From Yoonia ponticola (lineage in GTDB: Bacteria > Pseudomonadota > Alphaproteobacteria > Rhodobacterales > Rhodobacteraceae): a stretch of 64,000 nucleotides of DNA. Within the stretch, counting starts at the first letter, position 1, and every line of letters begins with the position of its first letter. The stretch covers positions 186,001 to 250,000 of the forward strand of contig NZ_JACIJM010000002.1 of the NCBI RefSeq assembly GCF_014199395.1, given 5' to 3'. This document shows, one piece after another, positions 10,493-20,512 of the stretch. The translations under genes were made by a program, and so were the position numbers. Below the pieces are notes generated by a model. The model was not told the origin of the DNA, searched no databases, and saw only the letters and a list, made by a program, of their open reading frames with translations.

Positions 10493-10578
10493 GCCCAGAT
10501 GGCGGAATGGTAGACGCGCCAGCTTCAGGTGCTGGTGTCTGTATGGACGTGGAGGTTCGAGTCCTCTTCTGGGCACCA
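10493..10578 (+). tRNA. tRNA-Leu (CAG)
   Basis: Acceptor arms GCCCAGA (10493-10499) and TCTGGGC (10568-10574) pair, followed by discriminator A and encoded CCA. The anticodon stem CCAGC/GCTGG encloses a loop TTCAGGT with anticodon CAG. A long variable arm and GGTTCGAGTCC in the T arm are as expected for a class II leucine tRNA. Its last 14 bases form the left attachment site of the integrated element. Confidence 0.96.
10565..10578 (+). repeat. attL (tRNA-Leu 3' end)
   Basis: 14-base direct repeat TCTTCTGGGCACCA identical to 20499-20512. Integration leaves the tRNA intact because the element supplies or keeps the same 3' end. Confidence 0.88.
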
Positions 10579-10701: not shown

Positions 10702-11073
10702 TTAGCCGCTTTTTGAGGCGCGTAGCAGCCGATTGCTGATATCAGTGAGCTTCGGTCCGTAATAATTGATGGCTGCACCCACAACGCCGTTCAGGCCGCC
10801 TTTTGTCTCGAGTATTTCGACAACGGCATATGGCACGACGACTAAAGCTTGAATGATCGTGTTGACTGCTCTCGCTATAGTTTCAGCGACTGGATGTTTC
10901 TGATTGAACAGCCCTGTGAGTTCCTCGACAGCTTCGCGGGCGGCAAGGTCAGCGATTGCGTTGCAGAGCTCCCATAGGGCGGGCGTCTCGCGGTCGAAGA
11001 AAGCACGCGCGTCTTCAACGGCCTCCGACAAGATGTCGTGCTGCGTCGGCTTTTTCATATGATGTACATTCAT
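10702..11073 (-). CDS. Unknown protein near left end of the element
   Basis: 123 residues, not recognised. The N-terminal half is charged and helical (EAVEDARAFFDRE, LAAREAVEELTGLF). The middle has a hydrophobic stretch (TIIQALVVVPYAVVEIL) that could be an amphipathic or membrane helix, and the C-terminus is basic. GGAG nine bases upstream of the ATG at 11073 supports this start; an in-frame ATG five codons later is the alternative. It is the first gene inside the left boundary and reads towards attL. It does not look like a helix-turn-helix excisionase, although that slot is often occupied by a directionality factor. Confidence 0.6.
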   Translation of the reverse strand: MNVHHMKKPTQHDILSEAVEDARAFFDRETPALWELCNAIADLAAREAVEELTGLFNQKHPVAETIARAVNTIIQALVVVPYAVVEILETKGGLNGVVGAAINYYGPKLTDISNRLLRASKSG

Positions 11074-11691
11074 AATGATGGTCTCCTTGGTTCGACAGCA
11101 AGCAGCAGGTTGCTGCGATATTCTTATCTAAGCTGTCTTCAAGGCCGCCGGAGTCGGAGATACTCCACCGGTCGTCGCGTTTTCCCTTTCATCATTTCCG
11201 CCCGATGTGGTGCGACATCAGGTCTCGCAAGAGGGGCCTGATGCTGCACGACAGACTGGCGTAGGCCTCCAGCCGTTTTGCATTTCCACCACCTCAATCA
11301 TCTATGGGTCGGTTGACGGGAGAGGTCGAGGAGAGGGCGTTAGCCTTCTCTTTGGCTGGCGCGGGGAGCGTCGAGCAGTAGGGAGGTCTCGGAGGGAAGA
11401 GTGCGGAACGACTTCTCTCCTGAGCCGTCGGAGACGCCAGTGGGATGCAAGGGGGAGTGGCGAACGATGCCCCTTGCTGCCCGCCGCACAGGCGCCCTGC
11501 TGGCGGCACAGGGTTCCGGGACAGCGTCCTGGACGAACGAAGAAGCTGAGAGCAACGGCCGTAGGTCGATGCGCTCAGCTTCATAGTGAGTAAACAGTTG
11601 AGCGCATCAGTAGAAGCGCGTCGCAAGAGCACCTCAAACCTCGCCCTTCGGTCGCGTTTGGAGTTCCGATTTCGGGGCGTATTTCCTTTCA
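11074..11691. other. 618-base gene-free, structured region upstream of the relaxase
   Basis: No convincing gene. Several inverted repeats are visible: GCAGCA/TGCTGC at 11103-11117, GCAAGGGG (11447-11454) with CCCCTTGC (11470-11477), and the oriT-like repeat at 11568-11608. A minus-strand open frame of 132 codons (11294-11692) has a biased, low-complexity composition and no ribosome site. The region probably holds the relaxase promoter and transfer origin, and might encode a structured RNA. Confidence 0.5.
11568..11608 (+). other. Putative oriT of MobV type
   Basis: A perfect 10-base inverted repeat, GATGCGCTCA (11568-11577) and TGAGCGCATC (11599-11608), encloses a 21-base loop. The loop contains TAGTGAGTAAA (11584-11594). 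The nick region known for the MobV relaxase of pMV158 reads TAGTGTG/TTA, so the resemblance is close. The site ends 83 bases before the relaxase start, where MobV origins are normally found. The nick position between 11590 and 11591 is inferred by analogy. Confidence 0.6.
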
Positions 11692-13401
11692 ATGAAACAG
11701 CCAGAACACCTCATCGTCTTGCGTTATGAACGCGTCACCTATCACGGCATCGGCGGCGTTGAAGCGCACGGCAAACGATTGGGGGATGTCGATAACGTCG
11801 ATCTCACGCGCACCTACCTCAACGAATTCCCGATCGGCCACGAAAACCTACGCGAGATTGTTGATAGCCACATCGTCAATATGCAACGAGACAATATTGA
11901 TTTGCGGCGGCAGTCACTAATTAGACGGCGCAGAAAGTCAGAGCTTAAAGATCTGGAAGCTGCCGTTGAGGCTGCCGATGAGGCTGCCGTTGAGGCTGCC
12001 GGCGATGACATCAATGCGTTGGCAGATTTGATCAATTTCCCCTGGGACCAAAAGAATGTTCATCCATTCACTGAAGGCTTCCTCTCAATCTCACATGAAT
12101 GGTTTCTTGATTCAAATGGCGAGCAAGATCCAGATAAAGTCGATCAGTTTCGCTCGTTTGCTCTCGGTTATCTGGAAGCGGAATTTGGCAATGAGGTGCT
12201 TTATGCGCGCCTCGACCTGGATGAGAAGACGCCACATCTATCATTCGTGATTGCGCCCGAGCATCGAGAACGCAGAACCGATCGTCGCATGCTTAGCCAT
12301 CGACAGCACCGTTTGTTCGGTAAAGAAGAAGTATACAAACTTTTTGAAGGCGACTGCGACGATGACGTAATTAAGCGCAAGAGTTATGAACTATTGCAGG
12401 ACCGCGTTGCAGAATATGCGCAATCTGCTGGCCTCGATGTTACGCGAGGCGAACGCCGCGCCGAAAAAGAGCGTGGTCAGAGAATGATGGGCGAGGCGGT
12501 TGTAAAGCGGCACAATATTACACCGTCCCGCGGCAGAGAAATCGCGGCAGCATTAGCTGCGGAAGCCGACGATAATCGCACAAAGGCCGCGCGACACGAG
12601 AAGTTGGCGAAGAAGCAGCTGGATGCAGCAGAAACCCTTGTTGTGAAGGCCACCGCTCGAGAGCGTGCCGCAGAAGCCCTCGAAGAAACCTCAAGGCAGA
12701 GGATCAAATCGATGGAAATTGGCACTGAGGCAATTCTGGCCGATGAAATCGCATATGCGGCACCAATTGACGAAAGAGGCGAGGGTCTGAAATGGGGCGG
12801 AAACAAGCCGAGGGACGAAGAGCGTCGAAATTTTTTAATAGACGCGACAAAACCCGCCCGAGATTGGCTGATAGGTTTCGCAAAGAAGGTCTGGCAGATC
12901 ACAAAAAGAGAAAAAGAAATAGAGAAAGTCGAGGCTGAGCAACGTCGAAAAGCCTCTGTCTTAGTCGAAGCCGAACGCAAAGCAGGCCAAAGAGCGCCTG
13001 ATGTGCTCACATCCATTGCTTCTGGCATGACCACAGCAACTGAGCTTACATCGCAATCATTTCCTGACGCCTGGGCATTTGATGCAAAGACACCCAAAGA
13101 CGTACTGGATAAAAAGTTGAACAATACTGCAAATCTTGAGCTGCGTAATGCCTGGCATGCGACAAGTGACGCATATTTGCTGAGCGACGATGCGCCAAAC
13201 TTGCGTAAAAGCGTTGGCAAAGGATTGGATGTCATCGAAGAAATAGCAAAACTTCGAGGCTTTGATCTTGAGACGGGAATTCACAAACCGGAGACGGCAA
13301 CGGACCCAGAGCGAGCGAAACAGCACACTGACGAGCTACCCACAGCTAAGCTTCGCCCGCGTCAGCTTCAACGTCAGCGCCAGCGTTTCCGCGGGGACTG
13401 A
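11692..13401 (+). CDS. MobV/Pre-family relaxase
   Basis: 569 residues. It would nick oriT and pilot the element's DNA strand during mobilisation. The N-terminus matches Mob_Pre motif I: His26 in AHGKRLGDVDNVDLTRTYLN, aligned with the catalytic His of pMV158 MobM. The metal motif is degenerate: DLDEKTPHLS at residues 175-184 replaces HxDExTPHxH, keeping Glu178 and His182 but with Asp175 and Ser184 in place of two His. Residues 90-104 derive from 12-base tandem repeats. After residue 270 the protein is a long charged coiled coil (A/E/K/R-rich), as in other MobV C-termini. The ATG follows TTTCCTTTCA with only a weak ribosome site. Confidence 0.8.
   Translation: MKQPEHLIVLRYERVTYHGIGGVEAHGKRLGDVDNVDLTRTYLNEFPIGHENLREIVDSHIVNMQRDNIDLRRQSLIRRRRKSELKDLEAAVEAADEAAVEAAGDDINALADLINFPWDQKNVHPFTEGFLSISHEWFLDSNGEQDPDKVDQFRSFALGYLEAEFGNEVLYARLDLDEKTPHLSFVIAPEHRERRTDRRMLSHRQHRLFGKEEVYKLFEGDCDDDVIKRKSYELLQDRVAEYAQSAGLDVTRGERRAEKERGQRMMGEAVVKRHNITPSRGREIAAALAAEADDNRTKAARHEKLAKKQLDAAETLVVKATARERAAEALEETSRQRIKSMEIGTEAILADEIAYAAPIDERGEGLKWGGNKPRDEERRNFLIDATKPARDWLIGFAKKVWQITKREKEIEKVEAEQRRKASVLVEAERKAGQRAPDVLTSIASGMTTATELTSQSFPDAWAFDAKTPKDVLDKKLNNTANLELRNAWHATSDAYLLSDDAPNLRKSVGKGLDVIEEIAKLRGFDLETGIHKPETATDPERAKQHTDELPTAKLRPRQLQRQRQRFRGD
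11959..12003 (+). repeat. 12-base tandem repeat inside the relaxase gene
   Basis: Units GCTGCCGTTGAG, GCTGCCGATGAG and GCTGCCGTTGAG, then a diverged partial unit. In frame it encodes AAVE-AADE-AAVE-AAGD. This is a small minisatellite likely to vary in copy number. Confidence 0.75.
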
Positions 13402-13469: not shown

Positions 13470-14184
13470 TCATTGTGAGGAACCGGTCGCGTCATCGGAA
13501 TCGAGAACACCCGGCAGATCCAAGGTTTCCGGCTCATCAAACCTGGTCGTAGATGCGGCGGTTTTCTTTGTACGACGAGAAGATGGTTTTGCTTCTTCCG
13601 TTTTCTCGTCAGCCGCTTCAGGAGAAAATTTCTCGGCCAACAGTTTGACGAACTTGTCTTGCTCAGCAAGTCGTGCTTCGGCTGCAATAAGAGCGGCCTG
13701 CGTTTCCGCAAGGGACTTCTGCGAGGCATCCAGTGCATCGGCGGTCTCTTGGGCTGTCTGCGTCGCTTTCTGTTCGGCTGCCTCTACCAGCTCTATGACT
13801 TCCTGCATTTCGCGGATCTCATTACGATACATCTCGTCCTTAGCAGCCTGACTGCGCTTGAGGTCTTCGATTTCCGCGGTTTGATAAGAACGCGCTTTCG
13901 CCCAGATCGCTTTCAAGGCCTGTTCGTGCGAAAGGGACAGCTCTTCTGGGATGTCAGGCATCGATGCCAGTTTCGTCTGTACCGCTGCCAGGCGCGTCTT
14001 CACTACCTTTGCAGCAGGGCAAAGCCTTGAGTTCGATGTGCCGATCGTTCTGTTGAGTTCAGCGATGGTTGGCATTTGGTTATCGTGCGCGGCCATGTAA
14101 GCAAGAATTGCCTTTTCCACGCGACCTTCAAGTTCGTCGTCGGTTGGGGGGGGCGGATTTGAGGTTTTTTTCGTGTTTCGACAT
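13470..14184 (-). pseudogene. KfrA-like coiled-coil DNA-binding protein with a frame break at a poly-C run
   Basis: The body resembles the KfrA N-terminal DNA-binding domain (RVEKAILAYMAAHDNQMP, then TIAELNRTIGTSNSRLC) followed by a long Ala/Glu/Gln-rich coiled coil and a basic tail with RRTKKTAAS. The best start is the ATG at 14184, with GGAG seven bases upstream. It is one base out of frame with the body: the frames meet at eight C (plus strand G run, 14146-14153). With seven C the product would begin MSKHEKNLKSAPPTDDELEG. An uninterrupted frame does exist from 14324, but that ATG overlaps a TATAAT box and its first 50 residues run through an operator palindrome. So this is either a slippage (phase-variable) site, an inactivating mutation or a sequencing error. 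Confidence 0.6.
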
Positions 14185-14212
14185 ATCGTGTCTCCGGTGG
14201 GGGTGTAATACG

Positions 14213-14239
14213 CGGTAATGGTATTACCGGGTATTACCG
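14213..14239 (-). promoter_or_regulatory. Operator-like palindrome upstream of the KfrA-like gene
   Basis: CGGTAATGGTATTACCG (14213-14229) is a perfect 7-3-7 inverted repeat, and the half-site GTATTACCG repeats 10 bases later at 14231-14239. It sits between the minus-strand TATAAT at 14323-14328 and the ATG at 14184, the usual place for autoregulation by KfrA-type proteins. Confidence 0.55.
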
Positions 14240-14322
14240 ACCCAAATGGGCCGGTAGTCAGGATATCGGTCGATGTCGGAGGTGAGACTAATTTGTTTGT
14301 GCGAAAAAATTTAGCGCAAACC

Positions 14323-14328
14323 ATTATA
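14323..14328 (-). promoter_or_regulatory. Candidate -10 box of the KfrA-like gene
   Basis: Perfect TATAAT on the minus strand, about 140 bases upstream of the favoured ATG. No good -35 hexamer stands out. The ATG of the longer open frame (14324) lies within this box. Confidence 0.35.
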
Positions 14329-14895: not shown

Positions 14896-15549
14896 CTAAT
14901 GTGTGTAGAGAGCCGTCTCGAACGTATCTTTAGTCAAAAACATGAGTTCTTCACATAAATTGGTGTGGGCCACTGCCAAATAGTTTTCCAAAGTAAACAT
15001 TTCACCATGAGCCACAAGGTGCCGCCACGCGACCAACTCTTTATCTATTTTCAGCCTATACCTTTGAAATGGTTGAATGTCAGCTCCAATGGTCTCGTGA
15101 ATGAACCGAAGTCTTTCAAAGTTCAAATTCGATCGTGGTAAGATAACTCTCCGGTCAAAATTTTTGATGTGGTTTCCTAATGTTTCCTGGAAAATTGCTA
15201 TGAGCTTGCGACGTGAAACTAAATTATCCGCCGTATCTCTATAACTATCGAGAGCAGCGGCCAACGCGCCCAGTAACATGTCTGGCGGCAACGTACTGTA
15301 AGGAACTTCTTTAGCTTCGAGAAAGTCAACCAGAGTGCCAGCACAACTGCTGCAATACCCTTCCCAATGGGCGTAACTCAGAACAACGATGGCACGAGAT
15401 GTTACCACTTTTTCTCGCGAAGTTTCAGCCTTGCTATGCATCACGCGCAAATCTGAAAGTTCGCGTGCACGCCACAATCTGTCAGTACTTAGCCGCTCTA
15501 TATAATTTTCGTGCATCCGCTGGATGTCGCTCTTTAAGGCTTGAACCAT
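14896..15549 (-). CDS. HEPN nuclease, MAE_28990/MAE_18760-like
   Basis: 217 residues, all-helical. SYAHWEGYCSSCAGTLVDFL at residues 58-77 matches the conserved start of the MAE_28990/MAE_18760 HEPN family. RHLVAHG at 176-182 is the R-X4-H catalytic motif (Arg176, His181). HEPN proteins of this type are metal-independent RNases used as toxins or effectors in anti-phage and conflict systems. The gene overlaps the end of the DUF262 gene by 16 bases (start 15549, DUF262 stop 15534), so the two are translationally coupled and probably work together. The RNase activity and target are inferred. Confidence 0.8.
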   Translation of the reverse strand: MVQALKSDIQRMHENYIERLSTDRLWRARELSDLRVMHSKAETSREKVVTSRAIVVLSYAHWEGYCSSCAGTLVDFLEAKEVPYSTLPPDMLLGALAAALDSYRDTADNLVSRRKLIAIFQETLGNHIKNFDRRVILPRSNLNFERLRFIHETIGADIQPFQRYRLKIDKELVAWRHLVAHGEMFTLENYLAVAHTNLCEELMFLTKDTFETALYTH

Positions 15550-16655
15550 GTGTCACCAAAAGGAATAGTTCGTTGCAAACGTTGGGTACCTCGTAATCCC
15601 GACGCAGACATTGCCTCAGCTTCTGGCTGCTGCCAGAAACCAAGAATCTGTTTCTTTACGAATTCTTCTGGGTGCCCAAGCAACTGGATATCTTTAGTGT
15701 TCCTCATGATGCCTACGAAAACAGCCTCAAGAGCACGAAGCGAAAACCTGATTCCGGGACTATTTATTGTTCCTGCATCTGGAAAAAGAGCTTTGGAACC
15801 GAAAATTTCGTGCAATATGTTCACTGTAAAAATGAACTTTTCTTCAAAATCGTCAACATTTTCCGTTGTTAAGATTTCAATGATTTCTCTATCTAAAAAC
15901 TCTTCGACGTCACTGATGTTGTCGTAATCACGGTAGGTATGAACTAAAGTTCGGACAATGTACTCCACATCCTTCTGTCGCTTAACTGCCGTTTCTTTTA
16001 TTGATGCCATCCCAACAAATTTCTCGTTTGTTGCAAGTGTTTTAATTCGTTTAACAAAATCAGGTGCTACCATCACCATCGCACACGTTCGGACTTCTTG
16101 TTCGTTGGCATAGGCGCCCCCGCGGTTTAACCTTTGAAATAGGTGAAATTTTGTTTCTGCGTCGCTTGGTTGCTTCAACACCTGAACATCAAGCCTCGCT
16201 CGCCTAATAGCTAACTGCTGTGGTTTTTCTAATGCCTTTTGCATGTCTACCGGAACGCCATCAATTTTGTCTGAATTCTCCCAAACTGCATTTTCAAGTG
16301 AAGGCAAATATGTTGTTTTTTGTAGTGCGGAAGGTGGAAGTAAGTCCTCCGTATCGAGTTCTTTTAGGACGCCGAAGAATTCAAAAATTGTCGAAATGCG
16401 CTGAAGGCCATCAATGAGCTCCCAGGTTCCGTCTTCATTCTCGTAGGTGAAAATGGATGGTATAGGGATATCGATCAGGATTGACTCGATGAGGTTTGCT
16501 TTCTTCTCATCAGACCACCTGAATAAACGCTGAAATTCAGGTTGGATATTCAGCTCGTCATTCTGGTACATTGAGATGATCTCACCAACGGACAACTGCA
16601 ATCGGTCAGTCTTGACAGACTGCCTTGCTTCTTCGATTTCAGTTTTGAGAGACAT
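15534..16655 (-). CDS. DUF262 (GmrS/ParB-like) protein
   Basis: 373 residues. The N-terminal DUF262 fold is related to ParB/Srx NTPases and to the GmrS part of GmrSD type IV restriction. Seen: LSVGEIISMYQNDELNIQPE at 21-40, the FQRLFRWSDEKK loop, SILIDIPIPSIF, and IDGLQRISTI at 81-90 (a variant of the DGQQR nucleotide motif). There is no C-terminal GmrD/DUF1524 HNH domain, so the nuclease function is probably supplied by the overlapping HEPN gene. The ATG at 16655 with AGGAG 11 bases upstream was preferred over a TTG at 16694. The gene diverges from the OLD-like ATPase gene. Confidence 0.82.
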   Translation of the reverse strand: MSLKTEIEEARQSVKTDRLQLSVGEIISMYQNDELNIQPEFQRLFRWSDEKKANLIESILIDIPIPSIFTYENEDGTWELIDGLQRISTIFEFFGVLKELDTEDLLPPSALQKTTYLPSLENAVWENSDKIDGVPVDMQKALEKPQQLAIRRARLDVQVLKQPSDAETKFHLFQRLNRGGAYANEQEVRTCAMVMVAPDFVKRIKTLATNEKFVGMASIKETAVKRQKDVEYIVRTLVHTYRDYDNISDVEEFLDREIIEILTTENVDDFEEKFIFTVNILHEIFGSKALFPDAGTINSPGIRFSLRALEAVFVGIMRNTKDIQLLGHPEEFVKKQILGFWQQPEAEAMSASGLRGTQRLQRTIPFGDTWFKP

Positions 16656-17063
16656 TGGATTACACACTCCTGTTTTGACCGCTTTTGACTTCAACCTAAT
16701 TCCGCTTGGAACGCAATGGAAATTGGACCACTACTGAACGTGTGGAGCCACTCCGAACAAAGGATGACGCTTTGTTAAAGTTAGTAAGACTGTTTGAAAA
16801 TGGCAGCACACTTCTGCTTCCCGCCCAAGCTGCTTTGCACCGCGCATCGAGAAACAAATTCTGAGCAAGACGCATTCCCACATAGATCGAAAACAATGCC
16901 GTCCGATTGACTTTTATGACGCGACAAATTCACTGCGGTGCAATCCGTTTTTGGGACATACCTCAACGTATCCTTTGCAACAATTACCATAGCATATGGT
17001 TAGTTATGTTCCCGTAGGTTAAGGGTTGGACTATATTGGTAACCTTATATCTCAGGGTATTTC
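16656..17063. other. 408-base divergent control region of the defence-like cargo
   Basis: Two short minus-strand open frames here lack ribosome sites and are dismissed. The right end (16985-17055) is AT-rich with repeated GGTTA/TTACC-like words, which may be operators. It should contain promoters for both the DUF262-HEPN pair and the OLD-like gene; no confident -35/-10 pair was found. Confidence 0.4.
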
Positions 17064-18737
17064 ATGATGGCTCAAAAACCACGTGTTTCGATAGCAAAGA
17101 TTTCTTTTTCTGGCGGTCAAGATTTTTCGTTCACGGCCAAAGAAAAGGTTATTATTGTTGGCCCTAACAACAGCGGAAAATCCCAGACGCTGCGAGAAAT
17201 CGTGAAGTATACGAACGAAGGAGAACAAGCTCGCCCAGTAGTCCTGACGTCACTCGAACTCGAAAAAACCGGGACAGCGGATGAACTCAAAGGCTATCTT
17301 GAAGAGCACGCACAAATTGTTGAGAAACATTATCGTTACAAAAACTGGAACATTTACGCTGATCATATTTCGCTTTGGGCGCAGCCATTCCTGCAACACG
17401 GCCTGGCTTTAGGATTCATCAAAAATATCGACGCAAACAATAGGTTAGCTATCTGTCGCTTACAAAAAAGCATTTCGGACACTGATCAACGCACAACCCC
17501 GCAGCATTTATTATATGATAGCGAATCGCTGATGAGGCGGATCAGTTCGCTTTTCCGCCAGGCATTTGGGCAAGACCTGATGATTAACTACCGAGGCGGC
17601 AGTGTCATTCCGATCCACGTCGGTCAACTGCCAACCAGCGACATTGGGCATCCCGTCAGCGACCGCTATGTCGAGGCGGTGAAAAGTAATCCTCCACTGC
17701 ATGAGCAAGGGGACGGCGTGAAAAGTTATGCCGGCATCCTGTTTGAAGCGGTTGCGTCTGACATTGACATCACGCTGATCGACGAACCTGAGGCATTTCT
17801 TCACCCCCCCCAAATGCGGCGACTGGGGGAAACTTTGGCTTCTGAGGTCAATGGACAGCTGTTCGTTGCAACTCACAGTAGCGATATCATGCGAGGCTTT
17901 CTTGAAGGTACAAAAGGCAATGTCCGCATGCTCCGCATTAGGAGGGAAGGAAAGAAAAACTTGGTTGCAGAGGCTGCGCCTGACACCGTAAAGGAGCTTT
18001 GGAACACACCCGTTCTTAGGTACTCAAATGCGCTTGAGGCAGTGTTTCACGAGCAAGCAATTTTGTGTGAAGATCACAGCGACTGCCGCCTATTCAATGC
18101 TATTGCAGACCACTTGGCAGAAACACAATCTGGCCATTGGCTTGATACTGCTTATATACCAACCGGCGGAAAGCACGCTATTCCTACTATTGCAAATATT
18201 TTACGGAAAATAGGTGTACCTACAAAGGCAGTCTTTGATATCGACATTTTGCGAAATCAAAACGATTTAAAAAGGTCTATTGAAGCCTTTGGTGGAAATT
18301 GGGCTGACTTTTCTGGGCCCTGGTCTCAAGTCAACGCTGCCGTGTCGAGTGGAATGCCCGTGAAGAGCAATCAAGAAATAAAGGCCTCCATCAAGCAAAT
18401 CATTGATGATGCTGGAACTACAAAACTTCCTAAGGGCGATATCACTGAGGCCATGAAGCAAGGATCAGCTTGGAGCCTCGTCAAAAAGGTGGGGCCTTCC
18501 GGTTTGCCGAGAGGCGAGGCCCGGCAGAACTACTCCACTTTAGCTCAAAAACTGGAAGAAATCGGAATTTACTTGGTCCCGGTGGGAGAAGTCGAAGAAT
18601 TCTGTCCGGAAATGGGCGTGCATGGTCCTAAGTTTGTCAACAAAGTTCTTACTGAAGTGGATTTATCTGACGACAGATTAGAGCCCCTCAGATCTTTCGT
18701 GACTAAGTTCCACAATGGACAACACGCCATTATTTAA
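17064..18737 (+). CDS. OLD-like ATPase with TOPRIM nuclease domain
   Basis: 557 residues. ABC/SMC-type ATPase: Walker A GPNNSGKS at 33-40, Walker B ITLIDEPEAFLHP with Asp240/Glu241, and the H-loop VATHSSDIM near 264. The C-terminal TOPRIM domain has ILCEDHSD (Glu336) and FDIDIL (Asp392, Asp394), the metal-binding residues of OLD-family nucleases. No helicase (Gabija GajB), reverse transcriptase or second effector gene follows, so it resembles stand-alone OLD nucleases, many of which are anti-phage. It is shorter than most Gabija GajA proteins. The gene starts with ATGATG after AGGG, and is divergent from DUF262-HEPN and convergent with the integrase. The defence role is inferred. Confidence 0.8.
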   Translation: MMAQKPRVSIAKISFSGGQDFSFTAKEKVIIVGPNNSGKSQTLREIVKYTNEGEQARPVVLTSLELEKTGTADELKGYLEEHAQIVEKHYRYKNWNIYADHISLWAQPFLQHGLALGFIKNIDANNRLAICRLQKSISDTDQRTTPQHLLYDSESLMRRISSLFRQAFGQDLMINYRGGSVIPIHVGQLPTSDIGHPVSDRYVEAVKSNPPLHEQGDGVKSYAGILFEAVASDIDITLIDEPEAFLHPPQMRRLGETLASEVNGQLFVATHSSDIMRGFLEGTKGNVRMLRIRREGKKNLVAEAAPDTVKELWNTPVLRYSNALEAVFHEQAILCEDHSDCRLFNAIADHLAETQSGHWLDTAYIPTGGKHAIPTIANILRKIGVPTKAVFDIDILRNQNDLKRSIEAFGGNWADFSGPWSQVNAAVSSGMPVKSNQEIKASIKQIIDDAGTTKLPKGDITEAMKQGSAWSLVKKVGPSGLPRGEARQNYSTLAQKLEEIGIYLVPVGEVEEFCPEMGVHGPKFVNKVLTEVDLSDDRLEPLRSFVTKFHNGQHAII

Positions 18738-18921: not shown

Positions 18922-20361
18922 TTATGCCGTCCGATGGCCCTTTTCATTTAAGATGTTGTCTATTTCGACTCGAAGCGCCTTGATCGGCCGCGGCTTCCAG
19001 CCGAGCGTCGCGAAGGCAACCATTTCTTGCAGCAGGGCGCGAATTCGCAAATCGACCTCGCCGCCATAAACCGGCCGTCCCCGAATAGCGCCGATCGAGT
19101 GCCCCATAAGATAGGCGCGCTCCTCATTATCCATACCAGCAGCTTTCATCCGGTCCTCAAATGAGTGGCGTGTGCAGCTAATCGTATAGTTGCGACTGAC
19201 CCCTGCTGGAAGTTCTGGAAATAGCTCGTTGTCGCGCAGATAAGCATTCACTTGGCTTGAATAGTTTGCTTTGCCGCGATGCCGAATGAAACCTCTACTG
19301 TTCCGCTTCATAGCTTCCAAAGAAGCCCCCATAAGCACAACGGGACGTGTTGACGAAAGGTTTTTGATCTGACGTTTGTTTGGACCGTCCGTGATCACTC
19401 GGATTAAGAAATGCGGGATCTCGTTTTCCAGAAAAATATCCTCTTCAGGAAGGTCATAGACTTCCGTACCACGCGTCCCGCTTTCAGCGCAGATAATTGC
19501 AATGTCAGAATCTTCTTGGTGATGACCTTCCAAAACTCGCTGACCAATTAACGTATCTCTTATCCACGTTTCCGGAAGCGGCATTTTGCGGCGGTTGTAA
19601 TCGACTGGGTCAAATGCGGCACTCGTAACTTTCATCCCAAAGAATGGGTTCTTGCGCTTACTACGGGGCAGCCGGATGTCGTTGTAATGCGCTTCGATCA
19701 TCTGACGGACATAACGTATCTGCTTGTTTGCATAGTTCGCAGACACATCCCCTGATCGATGGCGGCCGATCCAGTAGTCTTCATAATCAGTCGCATCTTG
19801 TTCGCTGATGCTCAGGACTGTCCGTTTTCCAATCTGCTTTTTAAAATCGACAGCGGCTCTGGCGAAGTTACTGGACCATTCACGCTTTTGCCTATCGTTT
19901 TTCGCTCGAATGTCAGATTTTTGTAAAACGGGCATCCTCTTTGCCATCTCATCAAGCGGGTAATCGGGCAGATCAACCGCACCGAGTAGTGCAGGAACAG
20001 CTACGGTATTGACTGTGTCCGCCGTTAATTTGTCGAGGCGATTCAAGATTTCATCAACCGTTCCCTTCGCAAGCTCTTCCGTGCTCCGGAAAGTCATTCC
20101 CCACCCTTTGAGGAGCTCAGTAGCGGCTTCGAACATGGATCGCTGACCAGTATCGCGACCTGCCCGCAATGCGTCCCAATGCTGCCGAAGTGCTTGCTTC
20201 GCCAAAACACACTGCGTTTCAGCCACCTTACGATCACGTGTTTTGAGAGATCGGTTGATTTCGCGTTTTGGCTCTACGTCCGAATATGCCTTCGGCACAC
20301 GCACGCGAAGGTAATAAGTGCTGCCTCTCAGTTCGAGGCCAGAGATTGAATTTGTAAGCAT
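18922..20361 (-). CDS. Tyrosine integrase of the element
   Basis: 479 residues. The N-terminal arm-binding region (LELRGSTYYLRVRVP) is the type found in DUF6538 integrases of Alphaproteobacteria. The catalytic set is complete: Arg297 (GTRGTEVYDL), Arg398 and His399-type box (SCTRHSFEDRM), His421 (LMGHSIG), and nucleophile Tyr432 (RPVYGG). It lies next to attR and reads inward, the standard layout for tRNA-targeting elements. The ATG at 20361 is preferred; a TTG nine codons upstream would place coding sequence through the paired arm-type repeats at 20367-20387. Those repeats sit 6-26 bases upstream of the ATG, so integrase binding there could repress its own gene. Confidence 0.93.
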   Translation of the reverse strand: MLTNSISGLELRGSTYYLRVRVPKAYSDVEPKREINRSLKTRDRKVAETQCVLAKQALRQHWDALRAGRDTGQRSMFEAATELLKGWGMTFRSTEELAKGTVDEILNRLDKLTADTVNTVAVPALLGAVDLPDYPLDEMAKRMPVLQKSDIRAKNDRQKREWSSNFARAAVDFKKQIGKRTVLSISEQDATDYEDYWIGRHRSGDVSANYANKQIRYVRQMIEAHYNDIRLPRSKRKNPFFGMKVTSAAFDPVDYNRRKMPLPETWIRDTLIGQRVLEGHHQEDSDIAIICAESGTRGTEVYDLPEEDIFLENEIPHFLIRVITDGPNKRQIKNLSSTRPVVLMGASLEAMKRNSRGFIRHRGKANYSSQVNAYLRDNELFPELPAGVSRNYTISCTRHSFEDRMKAAGMDNEERAYLMGHSIGAIRGRPVYGGEVDLRIRALLQEMVAFATLGWKPRPIKALRVEIDNILNEKGHRTA

Positions 20362-20366
20362 GAAAG

Positions 20367-20387
20367 TGCCCCACAAGTTGCCCCACA
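20367..20387 (+). repeat. Putative right integrase arm-type sites
   Basis: TGCCCCACA at 20367-20375 and 20379-20387, 12-base period, same orientation as the left-end pair at 10645-10665. They overlap the integrase translation start region. Confidence 0.65.
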
Positions 20388-20498
20388 AAAAGGCTGTTTC
20401 TTTGAAGCTCTGGCAACGAGGGCCGAGAGCAATTACTTCAAAGAAACTGGGACCTTATGTGAAAAAGCGGAAATTTCTAATGTTTTCAAAAGCAATCA

Positions 20499-20512
20499 TC
20501 TTCTGGGCACCA
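20499..20512 (+). repeat. attR
   Basis: TCTTCTGGGCACCA, identical to the tRNA-Leu 3' end at 10565-10578. It marks the right boundary; chromosomal DNA resumes after it. Confidence 0.88.

Follow-up and report, generated by a model that had tools for sequence, protein, structure and literature searches.

The window analysed here, a stretch of 64 kb, corresponds to positions 186001-250000 of the 480-kb contig C2 in a genome of 3.73 Mb (30 contigs). The features of interest are listed below in order of position.

10565..10578, + strand: left attachment repeat TCTTCTGGGCACCA, the 3' end of tRNA-Leu (CAG) 10493-10578
10702..11073, - strand: small hypothetical protein P0007
11318..11540, + strand: conserved non-coding hairpin array of ~220 nt, with covarying stems and near-constant loops
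11391..11420, + strand: array hairpin U1, stem GGAGGGAAG/CTTCTCTCC, loop AGTGCGGAACGA
11447..11477, + strand: array hairpin U2, stem GCAAGGGG/CCCCTTGC, loop with GTGGCGAACGA
11515..11533, + strand: array hairpin U3, TCCGGGAC-AGC-GTCCTGGA, followed by CGAACG
11542..11582, + strand: IR1-like oriT hairpin, 12/13 arm positions paired, 3' end 8 nt before the predicted nick
11568..11608, + strand: IR2-like repeat, spanning the predicted nick and having one arm in common with the IR1-like hairpin
11583..11594, + strand: nick core ATAGTGAGTAAA, predicted cut G11590/T11591
11692..13401, + strand: divergent MOBV-type relaxase P0001 (Pfam Mob_Pre, 44.9 bits; best fold match MobM)
13470..14324, - strand: KfrA-like coiled-coil protein P0002 (16.1 bits, below the cut-off of 26.1)
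14896..15549, - strand: HEPN (MAE_28990-like) protein, cargo
15534..16694, - strand: GmrSD_N protein, NsnA-like, cargo (191 bits)
17064..18737, + strand: OLD-like ATPase with TOPRIM domain, cargo
18922..20388, - strand: probable tyrosine-recombinase integrase (DUF6538; Phage_integrase E 0.11; RH..R, GHS and Tyr recognised by eye)
20499..20512, + strand: right attachment repeat TCTTCTGGGCACCA, a second copy of the tRNA-Leu 3' end

The two 14-bp attachment repeats are 9,934 bp apart, and the integrase gene starts 110 bp before the right one. Together with the relaxase gene and the oriT-like site, they are arranged as expected of an integrative and mobilizable element. The HEPN, GmrSD_N and OLD-like genes (14896-18737), side by side on the element, resemble a defence cassette. 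The empty site was sought in one genome of the same genus and not found: the tRNA was there, but only dispersed transporter-like copies matched the right flank. Seven proteins of the element were scanned, and none matched a type IV secretion system (T4SS) family. Elsewhere in the genome, contigs C10, C11 and C14 carry two VirB4 and two VirD4 genes, which are possible helpers.

In four of five orthologous loci (all but L110), the KfrA-like gene and the relaxase gene are convergent. The orthologous loci with this gene are devoid of the window's cargo and integrase, and P0003-P0007 had no match in five orthologous loci, nor did P0007 have a tblastn match in seven related loci. P0002 is a possible relaxosome partner. 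Genes for tRNAs (Gln, Glu, Glu) were found near L110-L112, a matter of proximity only.

The relaxase and the nick region

The frame of P0001 is intact and encodes 569 aa. Its Mob_Pre match (44.9 bits) passed the Pfam gathering score of 25.5, while the NCBIfam MobV equivalog gave 40.8 bits against a cut-off of 100; the protein is therefore called MOBV-type here and not a MobV equivalog. Motif I (HxxR) reads HGKR, with His26 invariant in all 11 aligned relaxases and Arg29 present in at least 90% of them. His26 is presumably the nucleophile. The available text of the MobM paper speaks of 'a histidine' (PMC5863519), and that of the MobSag paper of a 'motif I of unknown function' (PMC5090054).

The metal motif of P0001, DLDEKTPHLS (D-x-D-E-x-x-P-H-x-S), did not match motif III in the forms HxDExxPHxH or HxDExxPHUH. 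Two of the three HUH-motif histidines are replaced, and the same was seen in most close orthologs. The first metal histidine is an Asp in all 18 array-linked class I relatives with a readable motif. Of the six sequences compared at the third position, four have Ser (the window, L003, L004 and L053), L002 has Val, and only L090 has kept His. All 11 aligned sequences agree in the remaining motif residues. Judged from this altered motif, the activity of P0001 is not certain. A structural model built from the 11 aligned proteins (mean pLDDT 69.7) was used for a fold search of the PDB, in which MobM chains occupied ranks 1-7 (E 3e-6 to 4e-4, TM 0.63-0.71 by target length) and no match other than MobM had E<0.001. 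By its domain and predicted fold, P0001 is thus a MOBV relaxase with a variant active site.

The preliminary description had pointed to an inverted repeat with a nick-like loop upstream of this gene, and its account was exact. The arms GATGCGCTCA (11568-11577) and TGAGCGCATC (11599-11608) are perfect 10-base complements, extendable inward to 12/13 paired positions; the loop contains TAGTGAGTAAA (11584-11594), and 83 bases (11609-11691) separate the repeat from the relaxase ATG at 11692. The likeness to the pMV158 nick TAGTGTG/TTA that it had noted amounts to eight of ten bases. ATAGTGAGTAAA is identical to the predicted pZM3H1 oriT over CATAGTGAGT, and agrees with the MOBV-type core TAGTG(T/C)G/TT or the predicted MOBV2 form ATAGTGAGT. 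TAGTGAG occurs a single time in the 64-kb window, counting both strands. When the 300 nt before the relaxase gene were shuffled 2000 times with dinucleotides preserved, a perfect 10-bp repeat (loop 3-30) arose in 0.9% of the shuffles, and in none of them did such a repeat have TAGTG in its loop.

A longer repeat, overlooked at that time, overlaps the first one at 11542-11582 (arms GAAGCTGAGAGCA and TGCGCTCAGCTTC, 12/13 paired). It is followed by ATAGTGAG, and its 3' arm ends exactly 8 nt before the nick position in TAGTGAG/TA. The two structures exclude each other, since they share an arm. From what is described for pMV158 and MobSag, cleavage is predicted between G11590 and T11591. The proposal of an oriT beside a MobV-type relaxase is supported by the core in the close orthologs, the geometry and the MobM fold, with a qualification: the repeat originally named is the equivalent of IR2, and the equivalent of IR1 is the hairpin at 11542-11582. 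A second repeat lying over the predicted nick and overlapping the first, as expected of MOBV-type oriTs, was found in the window at 11568-11608 and in weaker form in relatives. The site is very probably part of an oriT.

Conservation of the core and of the two repeats

A relaxase search of 394 genomes of the family gave matches in 39, including the genome of the window itself, and 30 loci were taken. Three of these (L002, L003 and L004) hold close orthologs of P0001, with 50-53% identity. All three have an IR1-type hairpin, at a distance to the gene that is equal within 2 nt, and all three have the nick core ATAGTGAGTA with the downstream arm, which is weaker there than in the window. The IR2-type repeat scored 10 in the window and 8, 7 and 7 in L002, L003 and L004 (shuffle p 0.005, 0.05 and 0.10). 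Absence of the repeat upstream of orthologous relaxases had been named beforehand as evidence against the proposal; it is present in the three close orthologs in this weaker form, while in distant relaxases the core was often kilobases away or not found.

TTAGTGAGTAA was also found upstream of L012, L023, L026 and L028, and in the L026-type oriT IR1 is imperfect. Up to 12.5 kb upstream of 22 further or repeated relaxase loci was inspected. Nine of them have an array and a core on the relaxase strand, at -129 to -9539, the farthest of which could belong to another element; L012 has a core and no array; and both were absent upstream in 12 loci, three of which have 3.1 kb or less of upstream sequence. 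A related-locus search of genomes and viral contigs with the relaxase alone as query gave no relatives.

The repeats were scored in 30 distinct class I oriTs, 21 adjacent to a relaxase gene and nine in which the relaxase is not the next gene. The 21 come from 26 'adjacent' loci, as L007 and L084 have no core by the pattern used and L054, L055 and L065 are duplicates. Mean IR1-type scores were 7.5 in adjacent loci (n = 21) and 7.6 in non-adjacent loci (n = 9), and IR1 was better than shuffles (p<0.05) in 10/21 and 9/9, respectively (19/30 overall). The mean IR2-type score was 6.4 in adjacent vs 4.8 in non-adjacent loci (p 0.03), with scores of at least 7 in 9/21 and 0/9 (Mann-Whitney p 0.03), and IR2 was better than shuffles (p<0.05) in 5/21 and 0/9 (5/30 overall). 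That IR2 scores higher beside a relaxase gene is weakly consistent with its acting as an operator of that gene. Relatedness is ignored in the shuffle, binomial and Fisher tests used in this work, and the genomes of the relaxase and array searches overlap (for example, in the pairs L005/L102, L006/L078, L009/L069, L010/L074, L026/L065 and L028/L055), so that their counts are not additive.

Two types of core were found. In L005, L006, L009 and L010 the relaxase shares the C-terminal part of P0001 and not the catalytic part; the array is the same, and the core is ATAGTCGGTC. Cores of the TAGTGAGT type accompany class I relaxases in 18 loci and cores of the ATAGTCGG type accompany class II in eight, with no exceptions (Fisher 6e-7, relatedness ignored; 15 of the class I motifs were assigned by eye). 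Outside this comparison were L045, L074, L078, L086 and L098, with proteins too short for the motif, and 12 loci with no relaxase match. The core type thus tracks the relaxase type, suggesting that the core belongs with the catalytic domain and the array with something that is shared.

The hairpin array and the cargo boundary

The array was sought in 84,980 genomes with the pattern AGTGCGGAACGA-N25..55-GTGNNGAACG. This gave 64 stretches, 42 of Rhodobacteraceae type (we take the named genera of the related loci to belong to this family, which in its broad sense would then also be that of the host) and 22 from other organisms, plus one viral contig; about 15 stretches are expected by chance in a rough calculation. 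As the pattern fixes the loop letters, loop constancy in the scanned set is partly by construction. A relaxase-like ORF lies downstream on the same strand in 31 of 43 array loci and in none of the 22 other stretches. The question was resolved with longer sequence for L042 and L101; of the remaining ten, six have less than 1.5 kb downstream, and for the others (L072, L073, L075 and L082) the 2.1-5.4 kb available downstream of the array contains no relaxase gene. The nick core is present in 42 of 43 array loci, 38 by the stricter pattern and four (L053, L076, L084 and L085) by a looser one, with one base changed in L084 and L085; in L094 the sequence ends before the core position.

The stems covary. 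U1-type hairpins (all 47 distinct units) paired with their own arms had a mean folding energy of -16.19, compared with -12.71 for shuffled partners (sd 0.37; best of 300, -13.87). An earlier run with 40 of 50 segments, from which near-copies and L107 (a motif match with no such stem, included in the repeat run) were left out, gave -17.05 vs -13.59. The second type of hairpin (n = 17) gave -14.05 vs -12.51 (sd 0.42; best of 200, -13.65). G-T pairs were in excess on the + strand as compared with its complement, with 83 vs 9 in the 47 U1-type units, 68 vs 9 in the 40 and 21 vs 2 in the second type, indicating that the + strand is the folding strand. The + strand is the one predicted to be transferred, and it also has the sense of the relaxase mRNA.

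As a coding sequence the array was rejected: two ORFs cross it, 11207-11593 (+) and 11294-11692 (-), but the ortholog alignment has many indels in this stretch. It was likewise rejected as a known RNA, as no Rfam family other than tRNA matched above threshold; an lncRNA match had 20 bits (threshold 45). A covariance model (R1) had no match in 289 genomes, and the model also missed the genome of the window. The pattern CCGGCGAACG...TTAGTGAGTA, from which the window's own site differs, was absent from these 289 genomes; as weak evidence, this hints at a limitation to the family. Phage records had no match to the L098 array. Searches of open-licence PMC papers listed no title or abstract start that describes such an array, and a full-text search for GTGCGGAACG returned only papers unrelated by title and abstract start.

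The genes following the core were compared in eight elements, picked because no relaxase follows the core directly. Homology of 0.37-1.7 kb (74-95%) stops 0-18 nt past TTAGTGAGTA in 28/28 comparisons, of which 21 are fully informative (L101 has only 28 bases past the core). The genes after the core include HSDR_N in L071, a DndB/DpdB-like gene in L098, the candidate defence family PDC-S42 in L072, a weak DzbB match in L099, and AriA and AriB (PARIS-type) directly after the nick core in L097 (L097:5145-7369). Outside these eight, L075 has a TIR gene and L082 a PEP-hydrolase/sigma-54 activator, by Pfam no defence gene. Where cargo follows the core, seven loci have an ORF of at least 150 aa (L042 and L062 have none), and in four of the seven the first such ORF runs in the opposite direction. 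This speaks for DNA or a free RNA and against a leader.

In several loci, genes around the array were recognised by eye: the gene divergent from it in L042, L071, L072, L098 and L099 resembles the PemK/MazF gene of L138 (annotated as such only in L138). Further upstream, L042, L082 and L098 have serine-recombinase-like genes. In a plasmid of Thioclava sp. FTW29 (L139:6001-6296) the array is truncated by an IS3-type element, just past which are reverse transcriptase and retron effector genes.

Plasmid pC of Cereibacter (Rhodobacter) sphaeroides 2.4.1 (L138:8700-9420) has a looser array, an IR1-type hairpin and TTAGTGAGTAA, followed by a relaxase-like gene. Its loops are looser, stand on other stems and are followed by GGTTAGTGAGTAA. 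The gene, annotated as hypothetical, begins 86 nt after TAGTGAGTA, and its product has 25% identity to P0001 over 257 aa; MOB-suite typed the plasmid as MOBV. The transfer origin of a transmissible plasmid of R. sphaeroides 2.4.1 has reportedly been mapped.

Function of the site and comparison with known systems

The site most probably (roughly 85%) serves as transfer origin for an integrative and mobilizable element of ~9.93 kb, with the array as an accessory part, because the core recurs in the three close orthologs, the geometry is that of pMV158 and the relaxase model matches MobM. The element-encoded MOBV-type relaxase would bind the hairpin at 11542-11582, melt the adjoining ATAGTGAGTAAA and cut at 11590/11591, 8 nt past the hairpin. 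The + strand would then be led through a T4SS of another replicon, the relaxase gene entering first and the array last. By analogy with pMV158, the repeat at 11568-11608 may act in double-stranded form as an operator at the mob promoter, or may aid termination.

It could be argued that this repeat is only an operator or leader of the relaxase gene, transfer starting elsewhere or nowhere. The repeat does lie in the 5' region of that gene, IR2 of pMV158 can be bound as double-stranded DNA near the mob promoters (PMC5863519, available text), and IR2-type repeats are stronger where the relaxase gene is adjacent (9/21 vs 0/9 with a score of at least 7, p 0.03). However, IR1-type hairpins (9/9, p<0.05) and the core persist where the relaxase is not the next gene, and the core type follows the catalytic type of the relaxase, which makes this alternative very unlikely. 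Somewhat less improbable, but still unlikely, is that the element has decayed and the oriT is a relic of a relaxase that lost one metal ligand, as the Ser or Val in place of the third metal histidine (only L090 keeps it) would suggest; against this, the 569-aa frame is intact, the other motif residues are invariant among the 11 aligned sequences, and the substitution is common to orthologs that keep the core. A chance combination of repeat and TAGTGAG can be practically dismissed: perfect 10-bp repeats with short loops exist elsewhere in the window, but the combination appeared in 0/2000 shuffles and the core is kept in three of three orthologs at ~50% protein identity.

Regarding the array, the likeliest roles are second-strand priming or relaxosome assembly. 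Located just 5' of the nick, it would fold on the transferred strand as a start site for the second strand or as a place where the relaxosome assembles. We tentatively propose, at a little under even odds, that it is a new single-stranded DNA module: tandem hairpins, near-constant in their loops and variable in their stems, that lie on the trailing side of the nick, serve two relaxase/nick types and are read as the folded transferred strand, for priming or relaxosome docking. That it acts instead as a structured RNA, either a leader or a small RNA, seems to us somewhat unlikely. An RNA would give G-U-type pairs such as those seen on the coding strand, and in 31/43 loci the array precedes a relaxase ORF of the same orientation; but DNA accounts for the pair asymmetry equally well, the transferred strand being of the same polarity, no Rfam family other than tRNA exceeded its threshold, and the array is no plain leader where the first ORF after the core is opposite (4/7 cargo loci). 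A bolder extension of the single-stranded DNA proposal would make the nick a junction at which elements swap cargo, mostly defence-like genes. A second core at the other end of the cargo, expected just before the relaxase for an exchange between two partners, was found in none of L071, L097 and L098, so a constraint that ends at the nick is likelier than the nick as the point of exchange.

With these results, an unnoticed non-coding stretch becomes a recognisable transfer origin for Rhodobacteraceae-type elements with defence genes. Core and array allow mobility to be predicted from sequence, even where the relaxase gene is kilobases away, and the presence of the core with a looser array on plasmid pC of Cereibacter sphaeroides 2.4.1 makes them testable in a standard organism. 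The array raises the question of what recognises loops that stay constant while their stems vary, next to two different nick sites.

The oriT is a further member of the known MOBV-type oriTs, and the novelty lies in the accompanying array. In pMV158 (MOBV1, MobM), according to the available text, IR1 stops 8 nt short of the nick and IR2 lies across it, one arm being common to both, and the coding strand is transferred; the relaxase acts on IR1/IR3, while an IR2 stem-loop was not detected (PMC5863519). The window has the same IR1/IR2 geometry, the exact 8-nt spacing and a relaxase gene downstream on the predicted transferred strand. No array of this kind is mentioned in the available part of the pMV158 description (PMC5863519). 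The core is TAGTGAG/TA here and TAGTGTG/TT there, the site is G+C-rich here whereas that of pMV158 is A+T-rich, and the relaxases are only distantly similar.

The archetype of the MOBV2 oriT group is pBBR1, the oriT of which has reportedly been studied at the bench. MOBV2 oriTs were predicted in 2013 in the Halomonas plasmid pZM3H1 and in Paracoccus plasmids (PMC3606827, PMC3832669, available text). In pZM3H1 an imperfect 10-bp repeat surrounds CATAGTGAGTTA upstream of mobA (PMC3606827), a core nearly the same as that of the window, and the predicted oriT of Paracoccus pMOS2 is CTAGTAAGT (PMC3832669). Unlike the window, these systems (pZM3H1; Paracoccus pMOS2 and pMARC4) are short repeats on plasmids, and the available descriptions mention no array or nicking test. 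The initial suggestion that the site is one of few readable in a chromosomal alphaproteobacterial element was too strong, given such predictions (PMC3832669, PMC3606827) and the presence of the core in dozens of Rhodobacteraceae-type loci.

Among integrated elements, IMESag-rpsI of Streptococcus agalactiae (9.1-9.5 kb) is of a similar kind: in the available text it has the MOBV1 relaxase MobSag, a mobilization module that a helper plasmid can move, and an oriT of 42 bp with overlapping repeats (PMC5090054). In this Firmicute element, however, an ssoA is located downstream of the relaxase gene, while the array of the window is upstream of the nick. The ssi and sso sites (Frpo of F, the RSF1010 ssi and ssoA) are described, in the available text, as stem-loops on transferred single strands from which the second strand starts (PMC7690428). 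The array resembles them in being made up of stem-loops on the predicted transferred strand, a likeness of fold that leaves the loop sequences aside; it differs from Frpo, which is in the leading region, in its position on the trailing side of the nick.
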